A stretch of DNA of 64,000 bases from Epinephelus fuscoguttatus (lineage: Eukaryota; Chordata; Actinopteri; Perciformes; Serranidae): positions 18,432,513-18,496,512 of the forward strand of contig NC_064758.1 in the NCBI RefSeq assembly GCF_011397635.1, written 5' to 3'. The notes under the pieces were generated by a model. That model made no database searches. It was not told the DNA's origin and worked only from the letters and a program-made list of their open reading frames with translations. A program made the position numbers and the translations under genes. Within the stretch, counting starts at the first letter, position 1, and every line of letters starts with the position of its first letter. Of this stretch, positions 22,244 to 62,776 are shown in pieces.

Positions 22244-22264
22244 ACACAAATCAGTATGCAAAAA
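22244..22264 (-). promoter_or_regulatory. Shared upstream block with octamer-like core, gene A
   Basis: The 20-mer ACACAAATCAGTATGCAAAA (plus strand) lies 144 bp upstream of the start codon of gene A. It recurs without a mismatch upstream of genes B (36629) and C (62756). On the gene's sense strand it contains TTTTGCAT, one base from the POU octamer ATTTGCAT. Confidence 0.6.
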
Positions 22265-22989
22265 TAATCTGAAGTGCTGCTGCACAGTGTCCTTACACAG
22301 AGGTTGTAACAATCATGAGCAACAAAGTTTAATGCCTTTGAACATGTTTTTCCTCCTAGCTTTAGAGCTATTAAATACTCTAGATTGTTTTGGTGTGAGT
22401 TGCAAGTGTTGGAGATAACAGCCATAAAGATGTCTGCTTTCTTTAAAATAAAATGGAACTGAAAGCGACTCAGCTTATAGTGCTCAAAGTCCCAAGAATA
22501 TATTTGAAAAACTCAACAGCAATGTCTCTTTCCAGAAATCATGGCCTAGTAGATCAAGATAATCCACAGATCTTGTTGTGAGCAGTGTCATTTAGGTACA
22601 GTTTTCTTTCTGCCAACCTCAACCTGCTAACCGTATCAGTGTGTAGAAGGAAGTGTGCAACTACTGGTAGCTCACCTAGCACCACTGAGCTAACTACAGC
22701 TTAACCGAGTGAGGCGCCATTAATGTGAACATGTCACGCTGTAATTAGCACAAGCCTCTCAAATTTACTAGTTTTTACATTCAGTGGCTTGCGAAAGTAT
22801 TGACCCCTCTTGGCATTCTCTCTATTTTGTTGCCTTACAACCTGGATTTTAAAAGGAATTTTGGGAGGCGGGGTTTATCATTTGATTTACGCGACAAAAC
22901 TACCACTTTGAAGATGCAAATTATATATTTTTTTATTGTGAAACAAACAAGTAATAAGACAAAAAAACTGAAAATCTGAGTGCGCATAA

Positions 22990-24060
22990 TTATTTGACCC
23001 CCGCCCCAAAGTCAATACTTCATAGAACCACCTTTTGCAGCAATTACAGCTGCAAGTCTCTTCGGGTAAGTCTCTCTGAGCTTGGCACATCTAGCCACTG
23101 GAATTTTTACCTTACCGAGTTAGATGGGTTACGCTTGTGTACAGCAATCTTTAAGTCATACCACAAATTCTCAATTGGATTAAGGGATTGGATTTATTGG
23201 GTTCTGACTAGTGTGCCATCAGCTTATTAATAGCATTTTAACCTAAACAAAGAAAAGCATAAAATTTCCAGAAAGGTAAGTGTTGCTTTAATTGTTTCTC
23301 CTTAAACCACTGGAGTGTTGCTTTAGCAGTGTGTTTAGGGTCATTGTCCTAGTGGAAGGTGAACCTCCGTCCCAGTCTCAAATCTCTAGACGACTCAAAC
23401 AGGTTTCCCTCAAGGATTTCTCTGTATTTAGCGCCATCCATCTTTCCTTCAATTCTGACCAGTTTCCCAGTCCCTGCCAATGAAAAACATCCCCACAGCA
23501 CGATGCTGCCACCACTATGCTTCACTGTGGGGATGGTGTTCTCAGCGTGATGCGAGGTGTTGGGTTTGCACCAGACATAGTGTTGTCCTTGAAGGCCAGA
23601 AAGTTGAATTTAGTCTCATCTGACAAGAGCACCTTCTTCATTATGTCTGAGGAGTCTCCAACATGCCTTTTGGTGAATTCCAGATGTTCTACCTTATTTT
23701 TTTCTTAATGCAGTTTTCCTGGCCACTCTTCCATGATGCCCAGCCGTGTGGAGTGTACAGCTTATAGGGGTCCTATGGACAGATACTCCAGTCTCCGCAG
23801 TAGAGCTGCCCAGCTCCTTCAGGGTTATCTTTGGCCTCTTGGTCGCTTCTCTGATTAATGCCCTCCTTGTCCGGTCTGTCAGTTTTGGTGGGCAGCCCTC
23901 TCTTGGCAGGTTTGTTGTCAAGGCATAATCTGTACATTTTCTAATAATGGTACTCCGTGGGATGTTCAAAGTTTAGGATTTTTTTTTATAACCAACCCAG
24001 ATTTGTACTTCTCTGACCTATTTGGACAGCTCCTTGGTCTTCATAATGTTGCTTGCTTGG
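22990..24060 (-). pseudogene. Tc1-like transposase, decayed
   Basis: From MKTKELSKQVRE (about 24045), a stop follows early. TTNLPREGCPPKLTDRTRRAL (the second helix-turn-helix region) is then open at 23694-23969, followed in broken frames by [11 protein letters not shown] (first Asp), DNDPKHTA-like text near 23340 preceded by a TAG, and NPIENLWYDLK (catalytic Glu) near 23150. All three catalytic positions are recognisable, but several stops and frameshifts make it non-functional. It is a different family from the two Tc1 copies at 15285 and 28607. Confidence 0.8.
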
Positions 24061-24176
24061 TGGTAGCCCTTGTTTAGTGGTGTTACACTGGTGTTGACTC
24101 TGGGGCCTATCAGAAAAGGTGCATATATATGGCAATCATGTGACACCTAGATTGCCCACAGGTTATTAAACTAATT

Positions 24177-25491
24177 GACCTATGGCTAAACCCCGCCCCC
24201 AAACGCGATGAGCCAATCACAGTGCGTATAGCCATTCCCATACACTCGGACATTCTCTGCCTGGACGTCCATTCAAATGCATTACATAAAGTCAGTTTTG
24301 TTTGGCTTTATGAGCTTTTTCTGAGATTTGAAGTTTAAAAATGGTCAAACGGTATGCATGGGGTACATGCAACTCCGACACAAGGTATCCTGAGAGGCTG
24401 GGCGACAGGGTGTATTTTTTTACCCTTTCCTAAACTACATCTCAACCGAGAAAAGTGTCTCCTTTGGATAAAGCTGTGCGGTAGACCACAACATCAACTC
24501 AGTGTGTATAAGATTAACAATGATGTCTACATCTGTTCTAAGGTAAGACAGCATCGTGTTTGGGCAACATATTGTCACTTTGCTTTAAAGAAATATACAG
24601 CTATCTTTAACATCTCTAGCTAACGTTAGCTAAAGGGGTCCATGTCATTGGTCCGACAGCCCATTGGTCCGACATCCCATTGGTCCAACGGTCCGCGGTG
24701 CTGAAGGGCTCCCGGCGGGCGTATTTCTACCTTGATGGTGCGCCGCGACCGGCTCTGGGTCAGCTGGGAAAGGCTTGAGGCGAAGCAGGCTCACAGCTTA
24801 TGTGTTTGTTACTTTCTTTTTCATTTTAACCCACACCATGATCTTTTCCTGACCCTAACTAAGTGGTTTTTGTGTCTAAATCTAACCAGACCTTAACCAC
24901 AGGGCATCATGATGATTTCGGAACGGACTTCGGAACAATGGGTTTAATATGGTCGGAACAATGGGATGTCGGACCAATGGGCAGTTCCCTGCTAAAGTTA
25001 GCCTAATGTTAGCTCCTAGCTGCGTTGTTCATCATGTCACCTTGTTTGCTGGGAGTTCATTAGCCTATTTTGTTCTAGTTTTTGTACTTTGGTGATCGTA
25101 CATCATTGTTAGCTGTTGTCCAAAGGGCTCTAGTTAAACTAACATTAACTTCTGGAGCTTAGCTTCATTAATGTATCTGTAATTGCAGAGATAACAAAGG
25201 TTGGTAAACGTTATGCTGAATGATTCATTGTAAATACTGTAGCACCAAACTAACGTAGAGACACTCTTGGTAAAGATGGTAAAAAGGCCGTTATCGTTTT
25301 CTCATATTCTGAGCCAAAACCCTTAACTTCAGTGGCACTTTGATGCACCAAACTGTGATCGTTATGTCTCAAAAAATCATCAATTGCCTCCTGCGAACTG
25401 CTGTGTACTGTGACACCTGCCATAGCGCTGGTCACTGAATGTTGATATTTCGTCCGAGTGAGTGGAGGGGGGCGTGGCTTAACCATAGGTC
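24177..25491 (+). mobile_element. THAP-coding DNA element, copy 1 (nested)
   Basis: A 1315-bp element with imperfect inverted ends GACCTATGGCTAAACCCCGC and complement GACCTATGGTTAAGCCACGC. It is flanked by AATT on both sides (24173-24176 and 25492-25495). It lies inside the Tc1-like element, so the pre-insertion sequence can be inferred and contains a single AATT. On the plus strand from about 24342 it reads MVKRYAWGTC, then (after frame changes) REKCLLWIKLCGRP and DVYICSK followed by a GTAAGA donor: the first exon of a THAP zinc finger. The minus strand starts a second frame at 25486. A further 355-bp element sits inside it. Confidence 0.75.
24636..24990. mobile_element. MITE inside the THAP element
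   Basis: Present here but absent from the related copy at 49936-51054, giving an empty-site comparison. Flanked by GCTAAAG on both sides (24629-24635 and 24991-24997). The ends hold inverted repeats built from the unit CCCATTGGTCCGACAT, repeated in tandem at the left. About 355 bp, no coding capacity. A 7-bp (possibly 8-bp) duplication is compatible with a hAT-type mobiliser. Confidence 0.75.
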
Positions 25492-25704
25492 AATTGTGTG
25501 GCTTCTAAAGGTAATGGATGGGGCTTCATAGCAAAGGGGTGAATACCATATGCACACACCACTTTTCAGTTTTTTATTCTTTAGAATTATTTAAAACGTT
25601 ATTACATAAAATCATTTTGAATTTGAAATCCATTTAAGTTCCAGGTTGTAAGGCAACAAAATAGAAAGAATAATAATGGGGGTGAATACTTTCACAAGGC
25701 ACTG

Positions 25705-26819: not shown

Positions 26820-27330
26820 CTGACCTTGTAATAAAGTTTCACAGCTATCTCTCATTTAGGAGTCTAACTGCTGTAGGCACAAATGATTTGCTGTACCTGG
26901 TTCTAATTTTCTGCTGCAGGATTCTGCATTTTACCCTCTACTCTCTCAGAATATCAGAGAGAATGGTAGGGTCATTGAGGATCTGATCAGCCTTTTTAAG
27001 AATGCGGTTATTTGAAAAACAGTGCTGCAGACACCTGATCAACCCCCAGTGATCCTACTCATTGTCTTGATCATCTGCTACAGTTTGGCATGATTTTGAA
27101 CAAACATTTTCTCGAAGGTGCACATCAGACTAAAGGACAGAATGCTTTGTGAGACGGATTTGTAGAATATCTGGGGGTCTGCAGTGGTCTACTCTAAGAA
27201 CAGCCTCTGTTGTAGTTTCATAGACGTAATTCTTGCACATTCCTTGAATCTAATGGGGTCATCAATTTCACCTCCAAGGTATTGTAAATTGAGACCCGCA
27301 TATTAACCCCATATAGTAACCCAATTACTG
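26820..27330 (-). repeat. LINE ORF2 C-terminal fragment
   Basis: The minus strand, with stops and frame changes, reads YLGVEIDDPIRFKECARI, then FYKSVSQSILSFSL, ILKKADQILNDPTIL-like text and KSFVPTAVRLLNER-like text. This order is typical of the post-reverse-transcriptase tail of fish non-LTR retrotransposons of the CR1/Rex type. Too decayed for a family name; no ends found. Confidence 0.5.
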
Positions 27331-28606
27331 TCATTTTGACATTACTCTGAAAAAAATTCACAATCTATACTTAAAGTATGTAAGAAAAGTTGGGTAGGAC
27401 AATAAGGTGCATACAGTACTTCACAACAGTGTTTGGAGGAAGCAGTCATTGCTGTGATGTTTGCACTTTAGTTTTAAGAGGTTCATAGCTCTATTATCAG
27501 CAGTGTTACTGGAACAGTGACTGTCCTTTTGTTTCCTGGTATGTTAAGATGAACTTTGACTTTATAGATGTAGTGCTAGTGTATTTGTCTCTGTCTGTCC
27601 AGTTTCATCTAAACTTTTTTCTAAAATGCACACTTATTTCATGCGGCAATAGAGGGAATACACTGATCAAAGATTTCAGTTAGGCACCAAATTTAGTGGT
27701 GATTACCTGATTATACTTCATCAATGTACCTTTATTTTAAGCTCCCACCACCAGAGGTAAAAATAAATCTGTGTTGACGTTTTGGTAAACTTAAGCCATA
27801 CAAGTTTATGTGATCTTACAGTAGTCTAGCATGTAGATGTGTTGCCATAAGATTAGTGTGGGAACAAAAAACAAACACAGATTACATTTTATTACTGAAT
27901 CGACTTTATTAATGCATTGACTTTATGTTATTTGTTGTGTAATGTCCAGCGGCATAACCTAATGAGACTTGATAAGAATGGGCACATTTAGTGTACATTG
28001 AATCTTACAGTTGTACATGTTTTAACTCATGCCAAAAATATATCAAGCACATATTCTCTTGTATTGGTTGTCTAAGTGCAAAGATTCAACTTCAACAACA
28101 CCTCTTTCTCCTGTGTAAGTACATTTCTGACCCGAGCTGATGAGTGGCTCAGTATTGCAGAAGTTTAGGTTTTGAAAGAAGTGAGTGCACATTCATATTC
28201 CTCACAAGAGAAATTGTTATAGATATGAAACGTGGATGATTCAGTCCTTGCAAGGCCGGACAGGTCTTGCATTAAGGAATTCTACTCTAACTCATACAGC
28301 TTTATATGCAAATTGCTTGCTAATTAATCTAAATAATTGGCTAAGTTTAAAAAGAAACGACTACACTTAGTATTTACTGTCTTTCTAGAAAAAGTTGGCA
28401 TTTTGAGATATACACTTTTTGCTTTCTTGCTGTGAGTTACATGAAATTTATCCTGCTCTCAATCTCCTCACCTAACTTACTGCAAGAAGAAGAATCAGCA
28501 TATTTCTTAAAATGTTGAATGAGACCTGCGCAGTTGAGTATCTTCTAAAATGACAATCAGAGGAAGGCAGCATTTCCAGTTACTGATTAAAGGTACTACC
28601 CATATA
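27331..28606. other. Spacer without recognisable genes
   Basis: AT-rich DNA between the LINE remnant and Tc1 copy 2. The short frames lack any resemblance to known families. Confidence 0.5.
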
Positions 28607-30230
28607 CAGTACAGGCCAAAAGTTTGGACACACCTTCTCATTCAATGCGTTTTCTTTATTTTCATGACTATTTACATTGTAGATTCTCACTGAAGGCATT
28701 AAAACTATGAATGAACACATGTGGAGTTATGTACTTAACAAAAAAAGGTGAAATAACTGAAAACATGTTTTATATTCTAGTTTCTTCAAAATAGCCACCC
28801 TTTGCTCTGATTACTGCTTTGCACACTCTTGGCATTCTCTCCATGAGCTTCAAGAGGTAGCCCCCTAAATGGTTTTCCAACTGTCTTGAAGGAGTTCCCA
28901 GAAGTGTTTAGCACTTGTTGGCCCCTTTGCCTTCACTCTGCGGTCCAGCTCACCCCAAACCATCTCCATTGGGTTCAGGTCCGGTGACTGTGGAGGCCAG
29001 GTCATCTGCCGCAGCACTCCATCACTCTCCTTCTTGGTCAAATAGCCCTTTAACAGCCTGGAGGTGTGTTTGGGGTCATTGTCCTGTTGAAAAATAAATG
29101 ATCGTCCAACTAAACGCAAACCGGATGGGATGGCATGTCGCTGCAGGATGCTGTGGTAGCCATGCTGGTTCAGTGTGCCTTCAATTTTGAATAAATCCCC
29201 AACAGTGTCACCAGCAAAACACCCCCACACCATCACACCTCCTCCTCCATGCTTCACAGTGGGAACCAGGCATGTGGAATCCATCCGTTCACCTTTTCTC
29301 GTCCCCCAACGACACGGCGGTTGGAACCAAAGATCTCAAATTTGGACTCATCAGACCAAAGCACAGATTTCCACTGGTCTAATGTCCATTCCTTGTGTTT
29401 CTTGGCCCAAACAAATCTCTTCTGCTTGTTGCCTCTCCTTAGCAGTGGTTTCCTAGCAGCTATTTGACCATGAAGGCCTGATTCGCGCAGTCTCCTCTTA
29501 ACAGTTGTTCTAGAGATGGGTCTGCTGCTAGAACTCTGTGTGGCATTCATCTGGTCTCTGATCTGAGCTGCTGTTAACTTGCCATTTCTGAGGCTGGTGA
29601 CTCGGATGAACTTATCCTCAGAAGCAGAGGTGACTCTTGGTCTTCCTTTCCTGGGTCGGTCCTCACGTGTGCCAGTTTCGTTGTAGCGCTTGATGGTTTT
29701 TGCGACTCCACTTGGGGACACATTTAAAGTTTTTGCAATTTTCCGGACTGACTGACCTTCATTTCTTGAAGTAATGATGGCCACTCGTTTTTCTTTAGTT
29801 AGCTGATTGGTTCTTGCCATAATATGAATTTTAACAGTTGTCCAATAGGGCTGTCGGCTGTGTATTAACCTGACTTCTGCACAACACAACTGATGGTCCC
29901 AACCCCATTGATAAAGCAAGAAATTCCACTAATTAACCCTGATAAGGCACACCTGTGAAGTGGAAACCATTTCAGGTGACTACCTCTTGAAGCTCATGGA
30001 GAGAATGCCAAGAGTGTGCAAAGCAGTAATCAGAGCAAAGGGTGGCTATTTTGAAGAAACTAGAATATAAAACATGTTTTCAGTTATTTCACCTTTTTTG
30101 TTAAGTACATAACTCCACGTGTTCATTCATAGTTTTGATGCCTTCAGTGAGAATCTACAATGTAAATAGTCATGAAAATAAAGAAAACGCATTGAATGAG
30201 AAGGTGTGTCCAAACTTTTGGCCTGTACTG
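28607..30230 (-). mobile_element. Tc1-family transposon, copy 2
   Basis: A 1624-bp element of the same family as 15285-16851 but inserted in the opposite orientation. Flanked by TA (28605-28606 and 30231-30232). Both ends read CAGTACAGGCCAAAAGTTTG inward, and the inverted repeats run for more than 200 bp, overlapping the 3' end of the transposase gene. The right edge is 314 bp beyond the stop codon of T1R gene B. The flanks differ from those of copy 1, so the two insertions look independent. Confidence 0.93.
28865..29820 (-). pseudogene. Tc1 transposase, near-intact but frameshifted
   Basis: MARTNQLTKE begins at 29820. The helix-turn-helix DNA-binding half, linker and first catalytic motif (LWSDESKFEIF) are open to about 29300. 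A one-base deletion near 29303 (relative to copy 1) then shifts the frame. The second frame supplies DNDPKHTS, with an intact CAG before it, and SPDLNPMEMVWGEL up to a stop at 28865 created by a second one-base loss just after WKTI. All three catalytic positions are present, so only two small lesions separate this copy from an open frame. Confidence 0.9.
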
Positions 30231-30354
30231 TATATTAAGGCTACTGCTGGGAATCTTTAGTGAAAGCCTCTGTTTAGGAAAAGGACAATGCCAACCATCT
30301 CTGAAATAATCTCTTGTCGCAATGTTGGTAGCTTTAGCTCATTCCAAGGCTTTG

Positions 30355-30360
30355 TTTATT
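30355..30360 (-). promoter_or_regulatory. Candidate poly(A) signal of T1R gene B
   Basis: TTTATT on the plus strand gives AATAAA on the gene's strand, about 185 bp past the stop codon and before Tc1 copy 2. Confidence 0.45.
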
Positions 30361-30544
30361 GATATATTGCTCAAAAGTAAGAAAAATACAATAAAACATG
30401 CATAAAACATTAGTTTTTAACTCTTGAAAGAAAAGTACAAGAGACAAAGACTCAAATTACAATGTACCCTAAAAGGCAAGATTGTTAGCAGGAGGCCTGT
30501 GGAAAAACCATCTGTCTCTAGAGATGCATATTTACTTGAAGTTG

Positions 30545-33500
30545 CTACTGGCTGATTGTTTTGGTATACCTCTGAATGAGACCTTGGAAGTGTTCCTGCG
30601 TGTTTCTGTGGGATTGAAAAATGATGATATAACATTTTGGGAGGAAATACCACAACAGAAAGGAGTAGAGACTGGAGAGTACCGCCAGAGCGTTTAGTGT
30701 TTGGATGTACTTGCCACGGTAAAGAATGTACACAGTGGCAAAGACAATCCAGGTGAGGATCAGCAGGAGCAGGCAGAAGGTTATTGCTTTGGCCTCATTG
30801 TAGTTTTTTGGGAGGTCTTTACCCATGTAGGAGAAAATAAAGCAAAGGGAGCACAAAGATAGAAGTAAAATCACAGAACCAGAGGATGCTTTGAGATTAA
30901 TGTCACAACCAAGTATGACTTTGTCATGGGACCACAATGTGTCATGGTAGGGTCTGGGGGGAGCATAAGTATAGCCAATAATAAGTAAGAGTGCCTGAGT
31001 AACAAATGCCACAGTGATGACCAGCCATTGTCCATGATATTTCATCCACCAGCTGTGGATCTTGGGAAACTTGGCGGCTATTTTGAAAATGCAAACAATC
31101 TGAAAAGAGCGCACAACAAAACATGCTAGACAAACAGTATAGAACAATGAAAATGGTAACAACCTTAAGACACAGAAGGAGGTTGTTGGCTTACCAAAGT
31201 GAAAGAACACAGTGAGACTACACAGACTGAGGCAGCCTAAAATCAGAAGGCACATTGGTCCCCCAGCAGATCTGACAACAGGTGTGTTGTAGTTGATGGC
31301 AAAGAGAACAGACATGGCTAGTGTGAGGCCCACCAATGCCCAGGCCCCGATCATGATCAGTATGGCCCCACTGTCTGTGAATGGGATGTACTCCACCACC
31401 CGCAGATTGCATGATGTACTTCCTGCTGCAGACCATTCTGTCTCCTTACAGGCGATGCACTTGTAGGGATCCTCTGTTTTATATGAGAGACAGAGAGATT
31501 GTCAATAAAGTCCACTTGGGGAAAAATATCTAGACAGCTGAGGAAGCAGTGTTGCAGTTTTAATATTTTGTACAGTATGTTCTCCAAGATGAAATTAAAT
31601 AAAATCAAGTTTATTTATATGGCACATTTAAAAACAACTGCAGTTGACCAAAGTGCTGTACAACATAAAAGAATGACACACAAATGTATAGCAATATAAA
31701 ATGTACATAAATCTAAAACAAAATAAAAGTGATAAGAACAATAACATACATAAAAAGATTATAAAATACTAAGATATTAAAACTACAACCAAAAGCTATT
31801 GAAAACATGTATGTTTCAAGATTTGTCAATGGAGGGGGAGGATTTGATTGAGAGCAGAAGGCTATTCTAATGCTCAGGAGCATCTACCGCAAAGGCACGA
31901 TCTCTCTTACCCACCAGCCTTGATCGCGGGACAGTTAAAAGACATTGTTCAGAAGATCTAAGAGGTCGGGAGTTGGAGTAGGGACAGATATGTTCAGTAA
32001 TATACTGGGGTGCCAACCCATGTACGGCTTAAAAAACAAATATAAGAACCTTAAAATCAATCCTGTCTTTGATAGGTAACCAATGTAGGGATGCTGGCAC
32101 TGGCGTAATGCTGTCTCTTTTTCTGGCGCCAGTGGGGAGTCTCGCTGGAGCATTCTACCCCAGCTGCAAGTGATACAAAGATGACTGGCCGGCCCCCAGG
32201 TACAGAGAGTTGCAATAGTCAAGCCTTGAGGAGATGAATGCAGTGCTTACCGTTTCATGTCTTTGTGAGAAATGATGGACTTGAGTTTTGTAATGTTTCG
32301 TAGTTGACAAACAATAACTTCTGTTTTGTTATCATGTAACTGAAGACAACCGAATTTTGTGAAAATCGGTCAGGCAGTTTTTGTATAATTCTGCTAACAA
32401 ACTAATTAATTGGGCGGCATAACTAAAAAATTGTTCATTTTTGCGATAAAAGCGGCAAATTTGGTACATTTATAGCTTAATATACTGGAATAGAACACTT
32501 TGGTCACAAAACTTGGTGGAGACATGTAGCATGGTCCAACTAAGGCTGCCTTTCCACTACCATGTCTTGATGCCCAATTCCGATTTGTTGCCTATATCTG
32601 ATTTTTCCTGACTGCTGTTTACATGTTCTATTCACCTTATTTTTCACGGAGACACGGAGGCAAAACAGAACGCAGCCAGCTTCCGTTTTTTGTGCAACAC
32701 TTCCGGTCCACCACTCTTGACCACTATGTAAATGTCCCACTGTATTTGCTACAGTGACATTACTGCGCGCATGGAAATGTTTACATTACTGGAAGCAATT
32801 TTAAAGACTAACTTTAAATATTTGAAGTTAATCGTTAAAGAATAAATCACCTGGAAAGCTGGCGCTGCTCCACATAATTTAAAAGGTAACTTAGCCTACA
32901 CAGAGCGGTGGAAATGTCCGTGCAGCTGCAGACGGGTGCAGCTGGATGATTGATAGGTACATGCTGATTCCAGTGCTATCAGAGCCGATCCGCGCATCAC
33001 TATGGCTTAATAATCAACTCAGTCAATAAAAACAACCCGTCCTGTGTTAGGAGTGTATGCCGCTGATGAAAAATTTTAAAAAAAATAAAATAGAAAAGCA
33101 GCGTACACCTCACATATTTATGTCTCACAGTTGCGCACAAGTTTGGCTGGCAAGCAGAAGCACCATATCTGTGTCTGTGTGTCGAGGGTGCGAGCCGCAG
33201 CTTCAGCTGCTCAGGTAGAGAGGCTTAGCCCCGTGTGTTTTTTCGCTGATTTGGTTCTGCAGGTTCTCTGCTGGTACACTGGAGACGGGGAGCAGTTGTC
33301 TCACTCGGGATAGATTGTGCTTTTTTTGGTTCATAGTTTTTGATTAACGTGCGATTTATTCGGCTTTCCTTCCTTTCCCTTGCTCATGAGCACGTCATCA
33401 AAATGCGCTGTTGTCGCATTATTCATGTCGTACGACGTGGATTGCCAGGAAATATCTGATCTGTCTGTTTAGATTACAGACCTATTGGCAGATATCTGAT

Positions 33501-36456
33501 TCATATCTGATATATTTCCACATATGAAGGAGGCCTGAATCTGATCTGACAATATCCGATATCATGCGTTTTGTTTTTTTTACTGTTTACACGTTCATGT
33601 TGCAGATCCGATCTGTGCCACTTGAGAGGAAAAAATCGCAATTGAGTCACTTGAACCATGTAGTGTAAAGTAGGCTTTAGAGGCCAATACATTTTGGAAT
33701 GGATAATGGGACGGGTCCATGGGCAGGTAGGATTCAATTGCCTGCTCTGGCCACCAGGGAGCGAGTTTTTGATGCCCCAATATCCAGATTTGTTCTAAAT
33801 ATATTTGTCAACATATCTGCCAAATTTGGTGCTTTTATCACAAACTTGAACAATTTCAAGTTTAGTTTTTATTCATGGCAGATAGGTGGAAATTGAAGCC
33901 TATATGTGTCCAACCAGCACAAAATGAATGTAAAACCCTTTCAGCTACTGAAAATGCTTAACAATAGTCTGAAATTAACTCCTACCAGGGCCGTTGTTTT
34001 TAATTAATTCTCTTTCTCTCATAAATAGTAATTTACCTGAGCTGTTGAGATAAGTTCCATTCGCACAGATTTTACAAACGAAGCAGCATTTGTGGATTTC
34101 ATCTTGCTTTTTTGCATATCCTCCAAGACATTCTTGGGAGCACAGTGAAGTAGGCACCTGCACAAGACAATTATTTAGTAGCAACGTAGGTGACATACTG
34201 CATTACACTATGCATAATTAGGAAAAAAAACAACTTACGTCTCCGTTTGTGTACCACTGAATTTTGCTGTCGTTGATGAAAAAATTGACTGATGGGTTGA
34301 ATTTAAAAAAGCCGATCTCCTCCGCATCACCACTGTGGTTCCAGAAAACTATAGAGTATGATCCAAATGTTGGGTCACCATTCTCATCAAACCGAATATT
34401 GTGGTTTAAAAGTGTAAAGTTTGACTTCTTCAGCTCTGCAAGAACCTGATTTGGGTACACAAAGTTTGGATGACCATTATTTTATTTGATTTCATTAGGT
34501 TTTTATTCCTGGGGAGGGAAACATTGCTGTTTGATGTTCCCATTTTTGTCTCTTTCTCTCCAGACAGGATGTGGTACATTGTAGACTTTTACTATCTATG
34601 AAATTTCATGCCCGAGATTTTTAATGCAAGGCAATATTTGAAAGAAACATCAGGTTCAGTTATATGATGTAAAGTTTTATATAATATATGACAAAACACA
34701 TATACATTGTATATGTTGAGTTATGATACTCATCTAATGGTTAAAGCTGTCATAAACAAAAACAAACGTAAACATTATTTGTCCTCTTACCATGTGTGGG
34801 TACACTGTAATATTGTCTGTGCATCTGCCAGCTCCACATTGCAGGACATTGTGTAAGGCATGAGCGATGGCGTATACAGCAGAATAAACAGGAAAAGAGT
34901 AAGATGGGTCCACAGCAAGGATTTCTTCTGCACTCAGGCTGCTGCAATTGCAATCCTGATTACAAAACAAATTTTGTTCTGCCTTTTCACAATGAGCCTG
35001 GCTTCTAGAAGAACGGATAAAATCATCAAAACCAGGTATTTTTATCACTGGCTGAGACACTCCAAGTACAGTCCCAATACTTTTGATCACTTCCTCCTTG
35101 GGGAGCCTCTTGCTTAAGGACCAGGTGTCCCCTGCTATCCATACCCTTTTAGTGACATTTAGTTGCATTGCTGACTCAATGAGAGCTTCAGCACTCAGTT
35201 TTGGAGCAAAAACAATGACAACGTATATCTTCTGCGCCTCTATGTGTTTGAATATGTGGGAGTCATTTGTATTGTCGTTGAGACCTTTGGTGAATGCAAG
35301 GCAGATGTCAGTATCCTTAATCCTTCTGATGAACATTTCAAGTCCATCTTTGCCAAAAGCATCATCACTGTTAAGAAAAGCAACCCAGCGCCATTTGAAC
35401 CGCAGTATGATGCTAACAATCACTTCTATGACATCTTTATTGGAATGCACTGTTCGTAGAAAAGAGGGATATTTCGCTTTCTCTGTAAAGGCAGAGGACG
35501 CAGCTCCATAACTGACCTGATAGAGGAGTAATGAAGAAATTGTCAAAACTTGCAGTAACAATACTTTTTCAAATGTTAGATGTTAAAATTTGTTTCAGTT
35601 TTTTTAAAACTAAAAAAAAAGTTATTATGATGACTACACTGGAAAAAATCTCAAAACCAAATAGCTGGCAAACTTACCACAGGAATGAGATCCACCATGA
35701 ACAGTGGAGCTACAGTCAGAGTGTCAGTGCTTGAAAAAGGGCCGACCAGTGCCATCACTTTGGACAGATTCTTGTATGGTTCACCCCAAGGTTGGATCAA
35801 GTTATCGACTGAGAGGAGTTTCAAAACTCCTGGGAAAGTGTGTGTCTCTGAGCAGTGGTCAAATATCTCATAGCCGAGAGACACATTTGGCAGGAGGCTG
35901 GTGGAGTTATTGATTTCCTCTACAGAGAATCTCATCACCTGAAACCTTCGATAGCTTGGCAGAATGAAGGGTTGGCTGTGAACGGATATTGGAAAGTGGG
36001 AGAGGAGGATTACCTTTCAATTAACATCATCAGAACTCTGCACAGAAATGGTTGCAACAAAAGGGGATTTCATGGACCCAGGACCGAGGTCAGATTTAAT
36101 GTTATACAGCAACTTTGGTAATGCAACAATTAATTCTTTTGAGTTAGGGGGGAAAAGTGCGACTACCTACTGACCTAGCATTTGAAATAAAGCTCTTCAG
36201 TGTTCAAATAGGGTATGCTCAGTTACATTAAGAGTATGTCATCAGTGTTATGTGTTATGTATTATGAAACTCACCTGGAGCAGTCACTGGCTTCTGGTGT
36301 GTCTTGATAAACGGGGTCACTGACATGATGAATGTCAAAAAGTCCACCTAACAAATAATCTCCTTCAAGTTGAAACTCTGACGCTTGGGCAGTGCATTGA
36401 GCCGAGACACGTAGAAATGTTCCCAGTAGACACAGAAAAGCAAGAAAATGTTTCAT
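30545..36456 (-). CDS. tas1r: Taste receptor type 1 (T1R) gene B
   Basis: Second paralogue, six GT/AG exons with the same phases as gene A: 36275-36456, 35678-35975, 34791-35516, 34239-34445, 34037-34157, 30545-31473. The frame is 820 residues plus TAG. Signal peptide MKHFLAFLCLLGTFLRVSAQC; the Venus-flytrap domain runs to about residue 471; exon 5 holds CCFVCKICANGTY; the seven-helix domain fills exon 6. Exon 2 is one codon longer than in A. Exon 6 opens with EDPYKC where A has GNPYKC. The first 258 bp common to exon 6 (31213-31470) are identical to gene A while exons 2-4 differ at many residues. Intron 5 has grown to 2.6 kb by repeat insertion. No lesion is visible; expected at the taste-cell surface as one subunit of a T1R heterodimer. 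Confidence 0.93.
31600..32290. repeat. Interspersed retroelement-like repeat in intron 5 of gene B
   Basis: Begins with 'TCAAGTTTATTTATATGGCAC' and includes 'AGAGTTGCAATAGTCAAGCC' near the end, text I recognise as belonging to an abundant teleost interspersed repeat of probable LINE origin. No reverse-transcriptase motif remains. Both ends are approximate. Confidence 0.45.
32541..33680. mobile_element. Non-autonomous DNA transposon in intron 5 of gene B
   Basis: The left end TAAGGCTGCCTTTCCACTAC and the complement of the right end, TAAAGCCTACTTTACACTAC, form an imperfect inverted repeat. Both continue into related 'CCGATnT' and 'TATCnGAT' subterminal words. About 1.1 kb with no transposase. 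A clear target duplication was not found. The style resembles hAT-type MITEs. Confidence 0.55.
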
Positions 36457-36628
36457 TGTTGTAGTAACCTCTCATCAATCTGATATGATCTCTAATAGGA
36501 TTTGCCTCTGTCTTTAGTAAGCAATGTGATGCTTGAAACAGCAAACCCCCAGTATTCATTTCCATACACTTGGAAATGCATGACAGTAGGTGACAAACAT
36601 ACATACCCATCAATGGTTGGAGGAGAAT

Positions 36629-36649
36629 ACACAAATCAGTATGCAAAAA
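36629..36649 (-). promoter_or_regulatory. Shared upstream block with octamer-like core, gene B
   Basis: Exact copy of the block at 22244-22264, located 173 bp upstream of the gene B start codon. Confidence 0.6.
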
Positions 36650-39899: not shown

Positions 39900-41412
39900 A
39901 TGGCGACTGTGGAGGAGATTTTGATAATGTACCTGTTGCATAGAAGACAGAAACAGAGGCAGCGTTGTAGGAGGCTGTTAAATACATCGCGACTGGAGGA
40001 CGGAGAATTCGTTTGCCAATGAGAGAAATTGACGACGAGCGCCATTTCCAGTACTTCAGGATGTCCGCCGGGGCATTCGATAACTTGCTTCGCCGGGTGG
40101 CCCCCCACATCCAGCATGACAAGTCGCGCAGAGCGACTAGCTGTCACCCTGTGCTTTCTCGCTACAGGAATCAGCCAGCAAGCTTTGGCAGCAAGTTACA
40201 AGCTGGGTTCTGCAACTGTGAGCTGCATTGTCAGGGAGGTGTGCCATGCAATATGGATTGCGCTCAAGGATGAGTTTGTGTCTGTTCCAGAGGGAGAACA
40301 GTGGGAGGTGATCAGGAGAGACTTTTGGGAGCTGTGGAATTATCCCAACTGTATCAGGGCCATAGATGGAAAACACGTGAGAGTGAGAGCACCATCCAAC
40401 AGTGGTAGAAGTTTTTTTAAATACAAAGGTTACTTCAGCTTCATCTTAATGGCAGCCTGTGATGCAAAGTACAAATTCAGGTACGTCGATATCGGAGCTT
40501 ATGGGAGAGACAGTGATGCTGGCGTCTTCTTGAGGAGCCACTTTGGATCCCAGCTCATCAAAGGCATGCTTCATCTCCCACCCCCAGCTCCTCTGCCTGG
40601 GACTGAGACCAACACTCCAGCTGTGTTTGTAGGTGATGAAGCATTCCCACAGAAAATGAACCTGATGTGACCCTATTTAGGTCAGTACACCCTACACATT
40701 GCAACACTACAGTACAAAGAGATACACAATACTAAAGACATTTATCAATTAAATCAGGTTTTAAATCTGTTGTTAATGGCATAGTGTATTGTGGCGTGCT
40801 TTGTTGTTCTCTTTTAATTCACTATTAATATTTGTGCTATTGTTAGTAGACACGTATCCAGCATAATCTGTCAGCATTAATTATGACATAGGTTTTAGTT
40901 TTTGTAACCAATTAATTTTGTGTTTTACTATTCATTTATTGATCTTTTTTCCTTCTAAAGTATTTGCCCAGAAAACAAATGATCATGCAGGTTTTAACAG
41001 CAATATTGTTTTTACAGGTTTGCACCTCTCAGCTGATCAGTGAACCTACAATTATCGGCATTCCAGGGCCAGGCGAGTTGTAGAGAATGCTTTCGGCATA
41101 CTTGCAGCGAGGTGAAGAGTATTTGGAAGGGCCCTGGAGTGTTCCATTGAAACTGCACAGGATATCACAAAGGCATGTGTTGCTCTGCATAATTATCTTT
41201 GTGATGCAGATCAGTTCCAGCCAGAAGCTGAAAGGTACATCGCTCCTTTACTGATGGACACAGAGGGTGCACCTGGAGAATGGTGGCAGGTGATTCAGGG
41301 AGATACTAACCTTCTGGACACGCGGCACTTCACTACAGCGAGAGCAACACAGGATGGCATGGCTGCTCGTGATCAATTCAAAGACTACTTCCTTACTGAT
41401 GAGGGAGTGTGA
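39900..41412 (+). pseudogene. Harbinger transposase (HARBI1-like), inactivated
   Basis: Reads MATVEEILIMYLLHRRQK, then after a frame change MREIDDERHFQYFRM, and after another SQQALAASYKLG and CIRAIDGKHVRVRAP (first Asp) followed by DIGAYGRDSDAGVF (second Asp). A TGA replaces a codon after EAFPQKMNLM. A probable intron (donor about 40680, acceptor about 41018) leads to NYRHSRARRVVENAFGIL, which holds the catalytic Glu, and an end at 41412. Two more in-frame TGA codons (CGA to TGA and TGG to TGA types) and at least two frameshifts make it dead. The catalytic triad positions are intact. Confidence 0.88.
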
Positions 41413-54222: not shown

Positions 54223-57200
54223 CTACGAGCTGACTGTCATGGTATAACTCTGAATGAGACCTTGGAAGTATTCCTGCGTGTTTTTGTACGATTGAAAAAT
54301 GATGATGTAACATTTTGGGAGGAAATAAAACAACAGAAAGGAGCAGAGACTGGAGAGTACTGCCAGAGCTTTCAGTGTTGGGATGTACTTGCCACGATAA
54401 AGAATGTACACAGTGGCAAAGATGATCCAGGTGAGGATCAGCAGGAGCAGGCAGAAGGTTATTGCTTTGGCCTCATTGTAGTTTTTTGGGAGGTCTTTAC
54501 CCATGTAGGAGAAAATAAAGCAAAGGCAGCACAAAAGTAAAAGTAAAGCCACAGAACCAGAGGATGCTTTGAGATTAATGTCACAACCAAGTATGATTTT
54601 GTCTGGGGATGAAAATTCATGGTAGGGTTTAGGGGGAGTAAACGTATAGCCAATAATAAGTAAGACTGCCTGTGTAACAAATGCCACAGTGATGACCAGC
54701 CATTGTACGTGATATTTCATCCACCAGCTGCTGACCTCACGGCACCTAGCAGCTATTTTGAAAATGCAAACAATCTGAAAAGAGCGCACAACAAAACATG
54801 CTAGACAAACAGTGTAGAACAACAGAAATGGTAAGAACCTTAAGATACAGAAGGAGGTTGTTGGCTCACCAAAGTGAAAGAACACAGTGAGACTACACAG
54901 ACTGAGGCAGCCTAAAATCAGGAAGCACATTGGTCCCCCAGCAGATCTGACAACAGGTGTGTTGTAGTTGATGGCAAAGAGAACAGACATGGCTAGTGTG
55001 AGGCCCACAAATGCCCAGGCCCCGATCATGATCAGTATGGCCCCACTGTCTGTGAATGGGATGTACTCCACCACCCGCAGATTGCATGATGTACTTCCTG
55101 CTGCAGACCATTCTGTCTCCTTACAGGCGATGCACTTGTACGGATCCTCTGTTTTACATGAGAGACAGACAGGTTGTCAATAAAGCTAAGGTTTAATTTA
55201 GAAAAATCATCTGTGAATTAAGGGATAAGAAAAACAGTGTAGAAAGCAGTGTAAGACATTTAATCTGTGATATTGTATGTATTGGAATTAGTGTTTTGGT
55301 TTCTTTATATGATCTTTAGCACCAACTTGTGGTTATTGTAAGTACTTGCACTGAGAGGAAGGGAGCTCATAGGAAAACAGGATGCAGTGAGCATCCCAGT
55401 GTGACAACCTTCATAATCCTTTGCCTAAAAGACTACAAAACGGCTTCATCTGTATGTCATACACTATTTACATTTATATTAATATGTTTAAATAACAATT
55501 TCTTGGATTTGAGTACAGTATTTTTGATGATGTTTGCTCAGTTTGTTACAAAACTACAGTACTACAAATGGATGTATGAGTACTTGATAGTTCAAGCATT
55601 CTTACTTCTGTAATTGATGTTTACTGTTGTAAGTTCATCAGTTATCACATATTTTGACATACCTACAAGTGTTAACATTAATTTGTCATTAATATTTTCT
55701 CAGTAGCCTTTTCTCTAAGTCTTCCCAGAGATGTTATTTAGTACCTAAAAGGGTATTAACTTGTTTGTGTTCTGTGTTCTTTGGGCAGTTTACAAAACGA
55801 AATATTTTGGTTCATTGAATCCTGCCAAACACAACAACCTGTCTGTTCCTTTAAAGAAAACTAAACTGTTATATAAAGCTAAATATAAACTAAACTGTTA
55901 TATAAAGCTAAATATAAACTGTTATATAAAATATAATATAAAGCTGGCTGTACAGCTAAAAAACACGTTGCCTGCAACAACTTTTAGTGAGGACAGCATA
56001 TTGTGTATTTTCCTAAAATGAGCTTTTACCTCATGTCAAACTTGGTTTAAAGTTAACACTGATATACTTCAGAGATAATTGCAACAATTAAAATATTTAT
56101 TGTCGTATCTTAATTGGTGTGTGCATTTCTGAGTGAATATGGAAGCCTGTACAGCAGCCCAGTCAACATGAAATGACTGTTATATCCTTTTGGCCATAGA
56201 AAAGCTGAACAGTCTGAAATTAGCTCCCATCAATCAGTCATTGTCTTTTTTTCTCATTTCCTTCCTCTTATGTATAATAATTTACCTGTGCTGTTGACAT
56301 AAGTCCCGCTGAGACAGATTTCACAGTCGAAGCAGCATCGTTGGAGTCCATTATACTTTTGTGCATATCCAGTAGGACATTCTGGGGAACACACTGAAGT
56401 AGGCACCTGTACAGGAGAATTATTTAGCAGAAAAGTAAATGAAGTAAGTGATGGGGGCAAATGATAGAGAAGTGGCAGTATTTAGTATACAGCTTTTTAA
56501 AATTCTGAACAGGTTTTGTAATATGGAATCAACACTGAGTTTCATATCTAGATGTCAACAAGTGACACCATGAACAACCACCTTTGGTTCATGTTCCTGA
56601 CATTGGGTCTCATTAATGAAATGTTAGTGAATCTGTGAGTAGATTTGCACATTAAAAACCTTGATACTAAAAAACAACACTAGATATATGAACGCTGGAT
56701 TTGATCATAGGCATGTGTGTATGTTCATGAATACCAATCAATCGTAAACTGACACCATGCAAGTCAGCAATCAGCATACATCCCCGCCCATAATTAGCCA
56801 GTGTCTACTATGTATGGTAGTGATAATTACTATAGGTTCATCCTGTCGACTTGCGAGTATGGGGCAAACAAAGACAGAGAGTGAGAGAATGGAAAACTTC
56901 TCGGACGCTGAGACTTAGGTTATAATAGGTGAATGAGAAGAGATACATTTTTTTTTCTTCTGTTAGTAGTGGTGTGACTATTTCTTTTTAAAAGATTATA
57001 TTTTAGTTTTTGAATTTGACCCATGGCATCAATTCTTAATTAAAAGTATGCCGTTTGCCCGACAACTGCATTTGAGTCGAGGCGCTATCCTGTGAACACC
57101 TAGTGACTGTCACACCCCCACTTCACAGTCTTACCCCATAAAATGAAATGCAAAATATTTTCTTGTTTGTACAGATTCTGTTAATTATGAAGTCGTATTT

Positions 57201-60200
57201 CCCTCTTAATTGATATCCCCCCTCTCGATCCCTAAACAATTTCTGTATATTTTGTGGTAGAAGGTTATTATTCACTTTGTACATGATTTGTGCTGTTTGG
57301 AATTTCACTATGTCTGTAAATTTTAATAACTTTGACTGTAAGAAGAGTGAGTGAATATGATCCTGATAGCTGACATTATGGATGACCCGTATTGCCCTTT
57401 TTGAAGAATAGTGAATTGATTGAACTCATATAGTTATTGCCCCAGATCTCTGCACAGTAATTGAAATATGGTAAGACAATGGAACAGTATAGGATGCGGA
57501 GTGATTTATGATCCAGAACCTGTTTTGCTTTGCTTAAAACTGAAATGCTTCTCAATAGTTTGGTTTGTATATGTTTGATGTGTGGTTTCCAGCTGATTTT
57601 CTCATCTATTATCACCCCAAGGAATTTATTTTCATGAACCCTTTCAATCTGCACCCCATCTATCTGTATTTGTACTTGTTTGTTAATCCTGCAATTCCCA
57701 AATAACATTATTTTTGTTTTATTTAAGTTAAATGATAATTTGTTTCTGTCAAACCATATTTTCAGTTTGTTCATTTCTTTAGTGACTTCCTCCATTACTA
57801 CTTTTAAATTCTCCCCAGAACAGAAAATATTCATGTTATCAGCAAACAACACCAGCTTCAATACCTGTGACACCCTACAAATATCATTAATATACAAGAT
57901 AAATAGTTTAGGGCCCAACACTGACCCCTGGGGGACACCACAAACAATGTCTAAACATAAAGAACAAACATCACTCAGCGTAACAAACTGCTGTCTCTTC
58001 TGTAGATTTAACAATGTCCAATATTTCCTTCTTTTCCACCGCTTTGAGAAACATTGAGTTGTGATTTCATTCTATCAATATATCCATATTTTTTCCAACT
58101 GTCCCTGGATCAGAGATTTTTCTGTAAGGTCGGGTCCCACATTTACAAAAAATTTATTCAGATTGTCAGCTACATAACTTCTATTACAAATTACATTATG
58201 CTTATAGAACTCTGGATAGTCTATTTACTACTTCTTATAATACTGTTTAATATACCCCATATTCCTTTAATATTGTTTTTGTTATCGTCTAATATTTTCC
58301 AATAATAATCTTTCTTGCTTGTCCTTATAATATGAGTTAACATATTTTTACATCTTTTATATTTATTTTCTGCCTCTTTAGTTCTCAGTCTTATGAATTC
58401 TCTGTATAGTGCATTTTTCTTTTTGCTGGTGTTTTGCAATCCCTTTGTGATCCATGGCCAGTTGCTATATTTCAGTTTTCTTGTATAATCTTGAATTGGA
58501 CAGCTTTTGTCATATAATTACTTAAATACCCTCAAAAATATTTCATATGCATTGTTTCAAAGTCATCTGTGTATTGTGATCATAACAGAGCACAATATGA
58601 ATTAAAATTACAATTTTTAATGATGACAAGCAATATTTATGAGCAATATCTTATTAACACAAGCACTATGAGCAGTCAGAAGCAGGTTATGTTAGTACGT
58701 ACGAAAAAATTAGAGTTACAAACATATTGATGAATGCTAAAATACATGTAAATCTGCAGACAGTTTACACACAAATTCATTCTGCTCACACTTCATATTC
58801 ATCAAGAATATGAATTATTGTCAGTAACAAACAACTTACTTCTCCGTTTGTGTGCCACTGAATTTTGCTTTTGTTGATGAAAAAGTTAAATGGTGGATAA
58901 AAATTATAAAAGCCGATCTCCTCTGCATCACCACTTTGGTTCCAGAAGACTATAGAATAGAATCCATAGCTGGGGTCACCATTCTCATCGAACTGAATAC
59001 TGTGGTTGAACAGTGTGAAGTTTGACTTCTTCAGCTCTGCAAGAACCTGATGTGGATGCACAAAGTACAGATTATTGGAATGTGTTCATGGTGAACAACA
59101 GAGGTGTTAATTAAATAAGCAGTGTGATGCCCCCACTTTACCTCTGATCACTGCACAATGCATGTTGGTTAGGTTTGTGTCTGACTTCAGCCTGACTTGC
59201 TCTGAACTCATGCAAAATTGGACAAAAATAATCACTTGATTTTGAGCCGGCTGCATTTTTTTGAGCCAGACCCTGCAGTTGCTCTCTACTGACTGCAAGA
59301 CCCAGAGCATGATGGGAAATGTCCTGCTCTCACCTGATCTAACAGCTGATTTGTTTAGATGTTGAGTGTTGAATTGGAGAGATTTAGATTTTGTGTGTCT
59401 GACTTGGAGGTTTATTCTGATAACAGAATACATGTTGTGGCTGATGGTGACTTTAGTAGCCAGAGTGACCAAATAGATTCCTATTACAGATCATACTATA
59501 CATAGTCTGTTGTATATTAAGACTTGTGGTAAGTAGGATGTGTGCAATTTAAAACATGTCATTGTGAACATCTGCAGTTGCACCAAAACTACTTGGTTAG
59601 GTTTTGGCACCTCTTGGTCAGATTTACAAAAAAAGACTATAGTTTTAGCCAATAGCCCTTTTTATGCAGAGATGGTACTTCAGAATCCCTATTTTATGCC
59701 TCCTTTACATTTTTACACAGAACCAAATAATAATGGCATCATTCCGCTCCAGTGTGTGATTGTGGAAAGCATCCTGGCATCGCAGGATCAAAAGAGGCAT
59801 GACGGACGTGGCATGTAACGCAACAACATCGGCCTCTAATGTGACATTAAACACACACGTTGACAGCACTTTATAAACAATAACAATGGCAAAACATGGC
59901 AACAAGAATCATTTACTGTTCCTGTTATATGGAGGGTGATCTTGTCCTCTGCTCGGAGGGTAAGGAGCTCCCAAATCTCATTGTTTTACCAATATGCAGT
60001 TATTTACGGCTGATGTTCTTCTTCTTTGAGTTAGCCGCTAACTGCCAACAGCTACTTTCATATCACCTGTGGTGGGTTTCATGCACAACGTGTCATCAGA
60101 ATGTCACATGTGTCCTGCCATTGGTCCCGTCTTGCTGGCTGTCCTGTTTATAGAGCTCGTAAGTTGCGTGTTTCCATTTGCAGTACATGGGACCTTAAAA

Positions 60201-62643
60201 ATCGATTTCTCATAATGTATTTCAATGGCTAGATGAAAGTTATTTTCTGGTCCCACTTGAATTGTGCCATGAATTTCACATATGTTGTTTGTGAATTTTT
60301 AATATTTTTTCGTGCAAAGAAGGCTACAATTTAGCAGGAAGAAGTTTGATACTGTTAGGTTTTGTGTGAGAGCACTTTGTGGACTACAGCTCTTCTCCGC
60401 TCTCGACGCGTATGATATACGTCACCACTCGCACTCGGAACATGGCTGTGTCTCTGGTACACTTCACTGCCTTCTTCCAAGGAGAGGACAAAAGCCTTAA
60501 GCATGGTGAAAACCACTACAAGTCTGTTCTTGTTGGAATGGTGACATTCGGATACGAAACACACCGTCATCTTGATCTGATGGCTCCATAGATCGTGGTA
60601 GAAGATGCAGCAGCAGCACAGTGAGTTGAGAAGTGGAGGGAAAGCGTGATGACGCGACATCACATAGGCGACATGTAGTCTTTCTCATTACGTTGTTTCC
60701 ACAGCCTTTAACTGAAGAATCATACAATAAACTGTCAAACTCTTAACATGAAAAAAGTATTGTTTAGACCCTGGAACCCGAAAATATTAATTTTCTCTGC
60801 ATTGACTCCCATTCATATTTTCCGAGCCTAGAGGTCCGATGGGGGTCTACTGGAAGGGGCGTGACTTACGAGCTCTATACAGACACCGTTTGGGCGCTAT
60901 TACTACCTCCCACAGGGGCTCAAAGACGAGACAGACTGTCTCCCCATTCCACAATCGTACCATAATCACAATCATGAACTCTAAAAATCAGATAGTGAGA
61001 ATAAATTAAATGAATGATCAAGTTATCTGTATGCTTACCATGTGTGGGTACACTGTAATGTTGTTATTACATCTGCCAGCTCCACATTGCAGGACATTGT
61101 GTAAGGCGTGAGCGATGGCATATACAGCAGTATAAACAGGAAAATTAAAAGATGGATCTGCAGCGATGACATCTTCTGCACTCAGGCTGCTGCAGTTGCA
61201 ATCCTGATTACAAAACGTGTTTTGCTCTGTGTTTTCACAGTGAGCCTGGCTTCTGGAAGAATGGATAAAATCACTGAAACCAGGAATTGTCAGTCTTGGT
61301 TCAGCAACCCCAATTACAGTCCCAATATTTTTGATTCCTTTCTTCTTGGGGAGCTCCTTGTTTAAGGACCAGGCATCCACTGCTATCCACACTTTGTTGG
61401 TGATGTTTAGTTGTATTGCTGACTCAATGAGAGCTTCAACAGTCCATTCAGGAGCAAAAACAATAATGACACCTATCCTCTGTGCCTCTATCTGTTTGAA
61501 TATTTGAGAGTGATCTGTGTTGTGATTCAGGGCTTTGGTGTACGGAAGGCAGATCTCAGTGTCCTTTATCCTTTCTATGAGCAAGTACAGTCCATCGATG
61601 CCATAATCCCCATCAATGTAGAGGAAAGCAATCCAGCGCCAGTTGAAGTGCTGCACAATGTCAACAACTGCTTTTACGACGTCTTGATTGGTATGCACTG
61701 TTCGTAAGAAAGAGGGAAACATCTCTTTTCTTGAAAAGATAGAACTGGAAGCTGCATAACTGACCTGTTCAAAGAGTAATAGAGAAACTGATTATTTTCT
61801 CGGTGACAAATTGTCATGACTTTAAAGTAGTTTAGATTTTTTACAATTACTTTTGTGTTTTTATTACTCGATTTATCTGGTAAGAATATGCTAAAATGCA
61901 ATGATTGGCAAATTTACCATAGGAATGAGATTCATCATGAAGAGAGGGGCCACAGTCCGTGCCTCAGTGCTTGTAGAAGCGCCGACCAGTGCTATCACTT
62001 TGGACAGATTCTTGTGTGGTTCACCCCAAGGTTGGATCAAGGCGTCGATGGAGATGAGGTTGAAAAAATCTGGGAAATTGTGCGTATCTGAGCAGTGGTC
62101 AAATATCTCATAGCCGAGAGATACATTTGGCAGGAGGCTGGTGGAGTTATTGATTTCCTCTACAGAGAATCTCATCACCTGAAACCTTCGATAGCTTGAA
62201 TTAAGTAAGTGTTTACTGTGGGGAGAGGAGGGACAGGGAGAATATGAGAATTAGTTTCACTATTCAAGAATAAGGCAACAGTATTGTAAAGTCCATCCAA
62301 CCATGGACATCTAAAACAGGATTTCATGGAAATCATATTTTGAATAGAATGTGCTCCTGGCTATATCCATTGAGCTGACGTATGAGGCAGAACTCTTAAT
62401 GATATAATCAGATACAGCAGGCGCTCTGCATTAGTTTCATAAGGTATGCACTCGGATTTATTTTAAGACTCACCTGTAGCAGCTGATGGCTCTTGGTCTG
62501 TCATGATTAACAGGGTCGCTATGATGAACATCAAAAACTCCACCCAACATGTAATCTCCCTCAAGATGAAACTCCGAGGTGCATTGAGCCAAAGCATGGA
62601 GAAAAGTTCCCAGGAGACACAAAGAAACAAGAAAATGTTTCAT
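54223..62643 (-). CDS. tas1r: Taste receptor type 1 (T1R) gene C
   Basis: Third paralogue, six GT/AG exons: 62474-62643, 61918-62215, 61039-61764, 58840-59046, 56286-56406, 54223-55148. The frame is 815 residues plus TAG. Signal peptide MKHFLVSLCLLGTFLHALAQC; exon 1 is four codons shorter than in A and B, in the segment just after the signal peptide and beyond. The Venus-flytrap domain ends near residue 467, exon 5 has CCFDCEICLSGTY, and exon 6 the seven helices. Exon 2 starts with SKHLLNSSYRR where A and B have SQPF, and the second intracellular loop reads ARCREVSS instead of AKFPKIHS; together with the shorter exon 1 this makes C the most distinct copy. Introns 3 and 4 contain a MITE and a LINE fragment. 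No stop or frameshift is visible. Confidence 0.92.
55861..55945. repeat. 29-bp tandem repeat, about 2.6 copies
   Basis: The unit CTAAACTGTTATATAAAGCT plus AAATATAAA starts at 55861 and again at 55890, then a partial, drifting third copy. It lies in intron 5 of gene C. Non-coding. Confidence 0.75.
57120..58510 (-). mobile_element. Non-LTR retrotransposon (LINE) fragment in intron 4 of gene C
   Basis: Minus strand, N- to C-terminal order: KNALYREFIRLRTKEAENKYK (58439-58221), then a gap where the reverse-transcriptase core should be. Then VPQGSVLGPKLFILYINDI and LFADNMNIF (58014 onward; the catalytic FADD is FADN here), KFLGVIIDEKISWKPHIKHI and PYFNYCAEIWGN, then MKFQTAQIMYKVNNNLLP (57308-57123). 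The set is typical of fish LINE ORF2 proteins. The missing core, the D-to-N change and frame breaks make it inactive. It is in the same orientation as the host gene. Confidence 0.85.
60151..60877. mobile_element. MITE in intron 3 of gene C
   Basis: 727 bp with inverted ends TAGAGCTCGTAAGTTGCG and complement TAGAGCTCGTAAGTCACG. TA on both sides (60149-60150 and 60878-60879). The flanking sequence reads smoothly across the site when the insert is removed (GTCCTGTTTA then CAGACACC). No coding content recognised. Confidence 0.7.
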
Positions 62644-62755
62644 TGTTGTAGTTATTATTTACCAATCCGATGTGTTAGCCTCTACTGTTTGTAAGTTATG
62701 AGACACTGGTGAAGGCTACACCTCAGTGATCAGTTCCATTAACTTGAAAGACAGT

Positions 62756-62776
62756 ACACAAATCAGTATGCAAAAA
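62756..62776 (-). promoter_or_regulatory. Shared upstream block with octamer-like core, gene C
   Basis: Exact copy of the block at 22244-22264, located 113 bp upstream of the gene C start codon. Confidence 0.6.

Follow-up and report, generated by a model that had tools for sequence, protein, structure and literature searches.

An invariant block upstream of tandem T1R2-like taste receptor genes in Epinephelus fuscoguttatus as a candidate POU octamer promoter element

The POU octamer element occurs in the promoters of immunoglobulin, histone H2B and small nuclear RNA genes, where it is proximal and can lie in either orientation. In V1R and OR chemoreceptor clusters, paralogs keep a common proximal promoter motif while their flanks diverge. 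Here we describe a short block that recurs upstream of T1R taste receptor genes in a 64,000-nt stretch of Epinephelus fuscoguttatus DNA (the window), which corresponds to 18.43-18.50 Mb of contig C7 in a 1.047-Gb assembly (1,046,998,120 bases).

For taste receptors themselves, an octamer upstream of vertebrate TAS1R4 has already been published, and Skn-1a (Pou2f3) was proposed as the reader of this Oct motif (Nishihara et al. 2023, PMC10781636); the passages of that paper drawn on here add that little is known of the network switching on taste receptor genes. A preprint excerpt describes zebrafish pou2f3 as marking gill solitary chemosensory cells (PMC12927525), and a study of seabream reports repeated T1R2 duplication in fish in passages that are silent on T1R promoters. 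Searches of the open-licence literature turned up no octamer element described for teleost T1R1-3.

The T1R2 element resembles the immunoglobulin, H2B and small nuclear RNA octamers in placing an octamer or a one-base variant of it in a putative proximal promoter, and differs in that its constraint extends past the octamer, which is imperfect in five of seven copies. As in V1R and OR clusters, a common proximal motif is kept among T1R2 paralogs whose flanks have diverged; the receptor family is another one, and the exact-match search located the core at this cluster alone. The TAS1R4 Oct motif, as presented in the passages cited (PMC10781636), is likewise a conserved octamer lying no more than 300 bp before a T1R open reading frame, with two Oct-like motifs and Skn-1a/Pou2f3 as the proposed reader, and all seven T1R2-like genes considered here have an Oct motif, exact or with one mismatch, within 300 bp upstream of the start codon. 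That motif was described for TAS1R4 across species, whereas the present one belongs to T1R2 paralogs in one fish genome and consists of an extended 17-bp invariant core, mostly with a one-base octamer variant. The T1R2 element builds on the published octamer idea and does not amount to a system of a new kind. With exact matches at one receptor cluster only, it offers a compact handle on taste receptor gene control, and it bears on how tandem receptor copies keep the same expression while their proteins diverge.

An invariant core upstream of seven T1R2-like genes

A preliminary description of the window had reported an identical 20-mer upstream of its T1R genes. The positions given are exact, the copies spanning 22244-22263, 36629-36648 and 62756-62775, and the distances of 144, 173 and 113 to the start codons (22100, 36456 and 62643, minus strand) are correct as coordinate differences. 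Each copy stands upstream of an intact T1R2-type gene (genes 1-3), and no further copy with three or fewer mismatches occurs in the window; the count expected from dinucleotide shuffles is 0.01, and none of 100 shuffles gave three. The three-way invariant run measures 22 bp and reads TTTTTGCATACTGATTTGTGTA on the sense strand. The surrounding upstream DNA has drifted, as had been claimed, with pairwise identities of 66-69% at ungapped sites over 250 bp and many indels. No three-way run longer than 12 bp occurs in nine aligned control stretches, which comprise introns 1 and 2 in full, 300 bases at each end of introns 3-5, and 300 bases past the stop, and which together amount to 1,798 ungapped columns. 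The chance of a 22-bp run is approximately 1e-5 to 4e-5 at the observed invariance of 0.49, 1e-4 to 4e-4 at 0.55, 0.001-0.004 at 0.61 (roughly the synonymous rate of the window genes) and 0.02-0.05 at 0.70. The three window copies alone are suggestive to strong evidence, according to the neutral rate assumed; the extra paralogs settle the matter.

The block does stand before all three T1R genes of the window, although three is too few: a protein search of the genome revealed at least seven T1R2-like genes in tandem, in a cluster that extends beyond the window (a lower bound, as the best 55 of 420 candidates were scored), and T1R1 and T1R3 lie elsewhere. All seven T1R2-like genes carry the block; five keep the 22-mer unchanged, whereas genes 4 and 6 depart from it at 2 of its 22 positions. 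A 17-bp core, TTTGCATACTGATTTGT on the sense strand, is invariant in all seven upstream regions, and the element as a whole can be written T[T/A]TTTGCATACTGATTTGT[G/A]TA. Beyond the block and its margins, invariance in the seven-promoter alignment is limited to 29 of 166 ungapped columns; a 17-bp run was reached in none of 100,000 column shuffles (longest 12), and the run-length probability for the core at local invariance is about 1e-11. The promoters of genes 3 and 5 are identical and those of genes 4 and 6 are 95% alike, with the remaining pairs 52-65% identical, block included. When near-copies were dropped, the five distinct promoters gave the same 17-bp run under three alignment settings.

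Counted as exact matches, in a search that skips very common words and simple repeats, the block is not common genome-wide. The 20-mer has five such matches, of which three lie in the window and two outside it, each upstream of a T1R2-like gene. The 17-mer core occurs seven times in the assembly, once per T1R2-like gene; the reversed 20-mer and the core read backwards, used as controls, have no match genome-wide. The sequence, position, exact-match restriction to these promoters and constraint of the element are thus direct observations, and the earlier idea of an element common to T1R genes is well supported among the T1R2-like paralogs, where the element is constrained. An origin of the block as a dispersed repeat was rejected on the same distribution of the exact 17-mer. 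A non-coding RNA or tRNA gene at the block was also rejected, Rfam and ARAGORN having returned only the tRNA-Met gene listed in Table 1.

It is very likely, judging from these patterns, that the block is a constrained cis-regulatory element. The opposite view, in which it is a functionless product of chance or a short tract left by gene conversion between young duplicates, is strongly disfavoured and hardly credible. In favour of this view, the window paralogs seem to have been partly homogenised of late: their exon 6 is about 93% identical with a synonymous divergence (dS) of 0.11-0.14, versus 0.26-0.38 for exons 1-5. A conversion tract of block length in five lineages is nevertheless implausible because similarity among the distinct promoters breaks down no more than about five bases beyond each edge of the 22-bp block, and chance is opposed by the run-length probability of the core. 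Quite improbable as well is a core-promoter or transcript-processing element, placed near the transcription start or supplying the branch point CTGAT of an intron in the 5′ untranslated region, instead of a cell-type enhancer site. The location of the block (its GCATAC precedes the ATG by 104-188 bp across the seven genes), the TATAA at the block end in genes 1 and 7, and the fit of CTGAT to the vertebrate branch-point consensus favour such a role, but by eye there is no TATAA at that place in genes 2 to 6 and no acceptor AG common to all seven, the DNA just downstream of the block is gapped and poorly conserved, and the block-to-ATG distance varies by 84 bp.

Octamer-like character of the element

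Compared with the octamer ATGCAAAT, two of the seven copies match exactly (genes 4 and 6, ATTTGCAT) and five have one mismatch (TTTTGCAT), so that one or the other form is found at -108 to -192 from the start codon in every T1R2-like gene. The block had been described as one base from a POU octamer, which is correct for five paralogs; the base in question varies, and two copies are exact. The block of genes 4 and 6 can be read as ATTTGCATA-CTG-ATTTGTATA, in which two octamer-like sites form a direct repeat with a spacing of 12 bp. Two octamer sites with at most one mismatch in total, as in these genes, were found in none of 8,000 random 22-mers, and two sites with three or fewer mismatches in total, the level of the other paralogs, in 0.33%. 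Among 47 consensus motifs, the extended octamer TATGCAAAT was the best match, equalled by 0.7% of 4,000 random 22-mers before correction; the plain octamer was matched in 2.65% of the same number.

T1R1 and T1R3 of the same genome are located at C7 18.00 Mb and C1 22.10 Mb, respectively (one T1R1 exon scored 394 bits to T1R1 9xpj_A), and their start codons were chosen by eye. In T1R1 an exact octamer spans -135 to -128, which places it 127 bp before the presumed ATG; such an octamer is present in 2.2% of random 200-bp pieces. T1R3 has, in the 300 bp before its own presumed ATG, only four one-mismatch octamers, of which the site at -82 reads ATGCAAAC / GTTTGCAT with the 9-mer TTTGCATAC. This 9-mer is not rare, being present in 1.5% of random 200-bp pieces and having 3 of its 11 matches outside T1R promoters. 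Farther upstream of T1R3, three exact octamers ATGCAAAT at -997, -933 and -898 lie on one strand within 107 bp (L052:3377-3483), and no second cluster of this kind occurs in the 155,737 bases examined; the three sites do not belong to a tandem repeat. Two gapped patterns appeared to link the subfamilies: ACAAATC-N3-6-TGCAAA matched the T1R1 promoter, six T1R2 promoters and nothing else in 138,832 bases, and the matches of TTTGCATA-N0-10-CTGAT in 155,737 bases were confined to seven T1R2 promoters and that of T1R3. Because these patterns were made by hand after the sequences had been seen, and an unbiased gapped local alignment gave no significance, sharing of the whole T1R2 element with T1R1 and T1R3 is not claimed.

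The exact ATTTGCAT in two of the paralogs, together with the exact octamer of T1R1, strengthens the octamer reading. Our data support the view that the block is a putative POU (octamer) site inside a longer constrained promoter element. The preliminary proposal of a shared taste-cell promoter element with a POU octamer is supported in part, well in its constraint and to some extent in its octamer, its POU part staying a prediction. As the best explanation, held with moderate confidence, we favour a POU-read proximal promoter element fixed by purifying selection after tandem T1R2 duplication. The block would have been copied with the T1R2 genes as a cis-regulatory element and then held fixed as the flanks diverged. 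Its left half would be a POU octamer, followed 12 bp later, approximately one helical turn, by a weaker octamer-like site. Most likely, the octamer half would be bound by a POU-domain factor, for which Pou2f3 (Skn-1a) in taste receptor cells is a plausible choice, and the CTGATTTGT half by another POU molecule or by a partner protein, with the outcome that the T1R2 paralogs are given the same cell-type expression. We infer regulatory function and POU binding from sequence: the reader is probably a POU protein, and Pou2f3 as the specific reader is somewhat less probable, a choice that comes from the literature and not from the data presented here. The genome contains 26 POU-domain matches, from which pou2f3 was not picked out; three POU genes read from small pieces resemble what we take to be POU6 and POU5 types.

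Several observations weigh against a POU-read element. The exact octamer is absent from five of the seven copies, and the result for the best motif fails correction for the 47 motifs (0.007 x 47 = 0.33). Genes 4 and 6 alone have a direct repeat that stands out (0.7% of random 22-mers); at the level of the other five genes, one is present in 15% of random 22-mers. In neutral gapped alignment the whole element is not above random DNA in T1R1 (1,125 of 4,000 controls were at least as good at 200 bp and 1,545 at 300 bp) or in T1R3 (390 of 4,000 at 200 bp, 568 at 300 bp). The CTG spacer and the ATTTGT half are constrained too, and therefore the octamer alone is not the whole story. In the passages cited, moreover, Nishihara et al. 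saw no Oct sites in other novel TAS1Rs (PMC10781636).

These points leave some room for a taste-cell cis-regulatory element read by a non-POU factor, with an incidental resemblance to the octamer, an alternative that we regard as fairly unlikely. Consensus matching points to Onecut-like (ATTGATTT) or PBX-HOX-like (TGATTTAT) candidates, or else to an unlisted factor that covers CATACTGATTTGT. The constraint, which is as strong in the spacer and right half as in the octamer half, would suit such a reader, and one-mismatch Onecut and PBX-HOX consensus matches occur in 3.0% and 3.5% of 4,000 random 22-mers, near the figure for the plain octamer. The exact octamer in two paralogs and in T1R1, and the first rank of the extended octamer among the 47 motifs, argue instead for a POU protein, as does earlier literature, which in the passages cited favours Oct and Skn-1a (PMC10781636).

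Only tentatively, and against our own expectation, can the POU reading be widened to all T1R subfamilies of this fish, which might be wired by promoter-near POU octamers (the T1R2 two-site element 12 bp apart, the exact T1R1 site at -135, and in T1R3 TTTGCATAC at -82 together with the three octamers at -898 to -997). If this were true, a taste-cell octamer code would predate the split of the T1R subfamilies and would have been kept through each tandem duplication.

Genes of the window and layout of the cluster

The coordinates of the genes and blocks are given in Table 1; in the exon models of genes 1-3, splice sites were chosen with guidance by eye. The protein of gene 1, the one scanned of the three, matches ANF_receptor, NCD3G and 7tm_3 above Pfam cut-offs, and by these domains it is a predicted class C G-protein-coupled receptor with Venus-flytrap, cysteine-rich and seven-transmembrane (7TM) domains. 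Gene 3 has as its best PDB match T1R2a 5x2m_A (663.7 bits; a structure of the ligand-binding part, presumably of the medaka protein), followed by T1R2 9nor_A (516), CaSR (391), T1R3 (338) and T1R1 9xpj_A (232; ligand-binding part). No V2R is among the 60 PDB matches listed, in a comparison made by match score. Because gene 1 has the three Pfam domains of the family and the best solved relative of gene 3 is T1R2a 5x2m, the window genes are assigned by sequence to the T1R2 type, closer to T1R2 than to T1R1, T1R3 or CaSR.

Table 1. Positions of T1R2-like genes, promoter blocks and a tRNA gene in the window
Feature	Position	Strand	Remarks
22-bp invariant block, gene 1	22243..22264	minus	17-bp core 22246-22262
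Octamer-like ATGCAAAA, gene 1 block	22256-22263	plus	
22-bp invariant block, gene 2	36628..36649	minus	17-bp core 36631-36647
22-bp invariant block, gene 3	62755..62776	minus	17-bp core 62758-62774
T1R2-like gene 1	16926..22100	minus	6 exons, 818 aa, intact frame
Gene 1 exons	22100-21919, 21576-21282, 21113-20388, 19631-19425, 18466-18346, 17851-16926	minus	
T1R2-like gene 2	30545..36456	minus	6 exons, 820 aa, intact frame
T1R2-like gene 3	54223..62643	minus	6 exons, 815 aa, intact frame
tRNA-Met gene	4140-4211		Rfam, ARAGORN

In an exon-by-exon search, genes 4, 6 and 7 had all six exons matched and no stop. Gene 5 (L042, C7:18520800-18529000) has an in-frame stop in exon 2, partial matches to exons 3 and 6, and 213 N, and by its sequence is probably a pseudogene. 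It resembles a recent pseudogene of gene 3, yet its promoter block is intact. A further T1R candidate, at C8:45785526, was discarded on account of a CaSR-like 7TM part. Outside the window, C5:25.7-26.7 Mb holds a large cluster of class C receptor exons, which we take to be V2R/OlfC-like.

The high identity of exon 6 (7TM) among genes 1-3 concerns 54223-55148, 30545-31473 and 16926-17851; exons 1-5 are 82-85% identical. This pattern suggests that gene conversion may homogenise the transmembrane exon while the ligand-binding exons diverge. Two Tc1-like transposons (15279-16853 and 28605-30236, Pfam having been run on the second copy only) are about 95% identical, opposite in orientation and each situated just 3′ of a T1R2 gene. 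Minus-strand pieces at 7640-8553 resemble by eye what we assume to be a HES/her basic helix-loop-helix gene; a 157-aa piece of this region had no Pfam match. Intron 4 of gene 3 contains a reverse transcriptase fragment (RVT_1, 57379-58071), presumably of the long interspersed nuclear element type, and a DDE_Tnp_4 transposase fragment, which we take to be Harbinger-like, lies between genes 2 and 3 (40023-40670).

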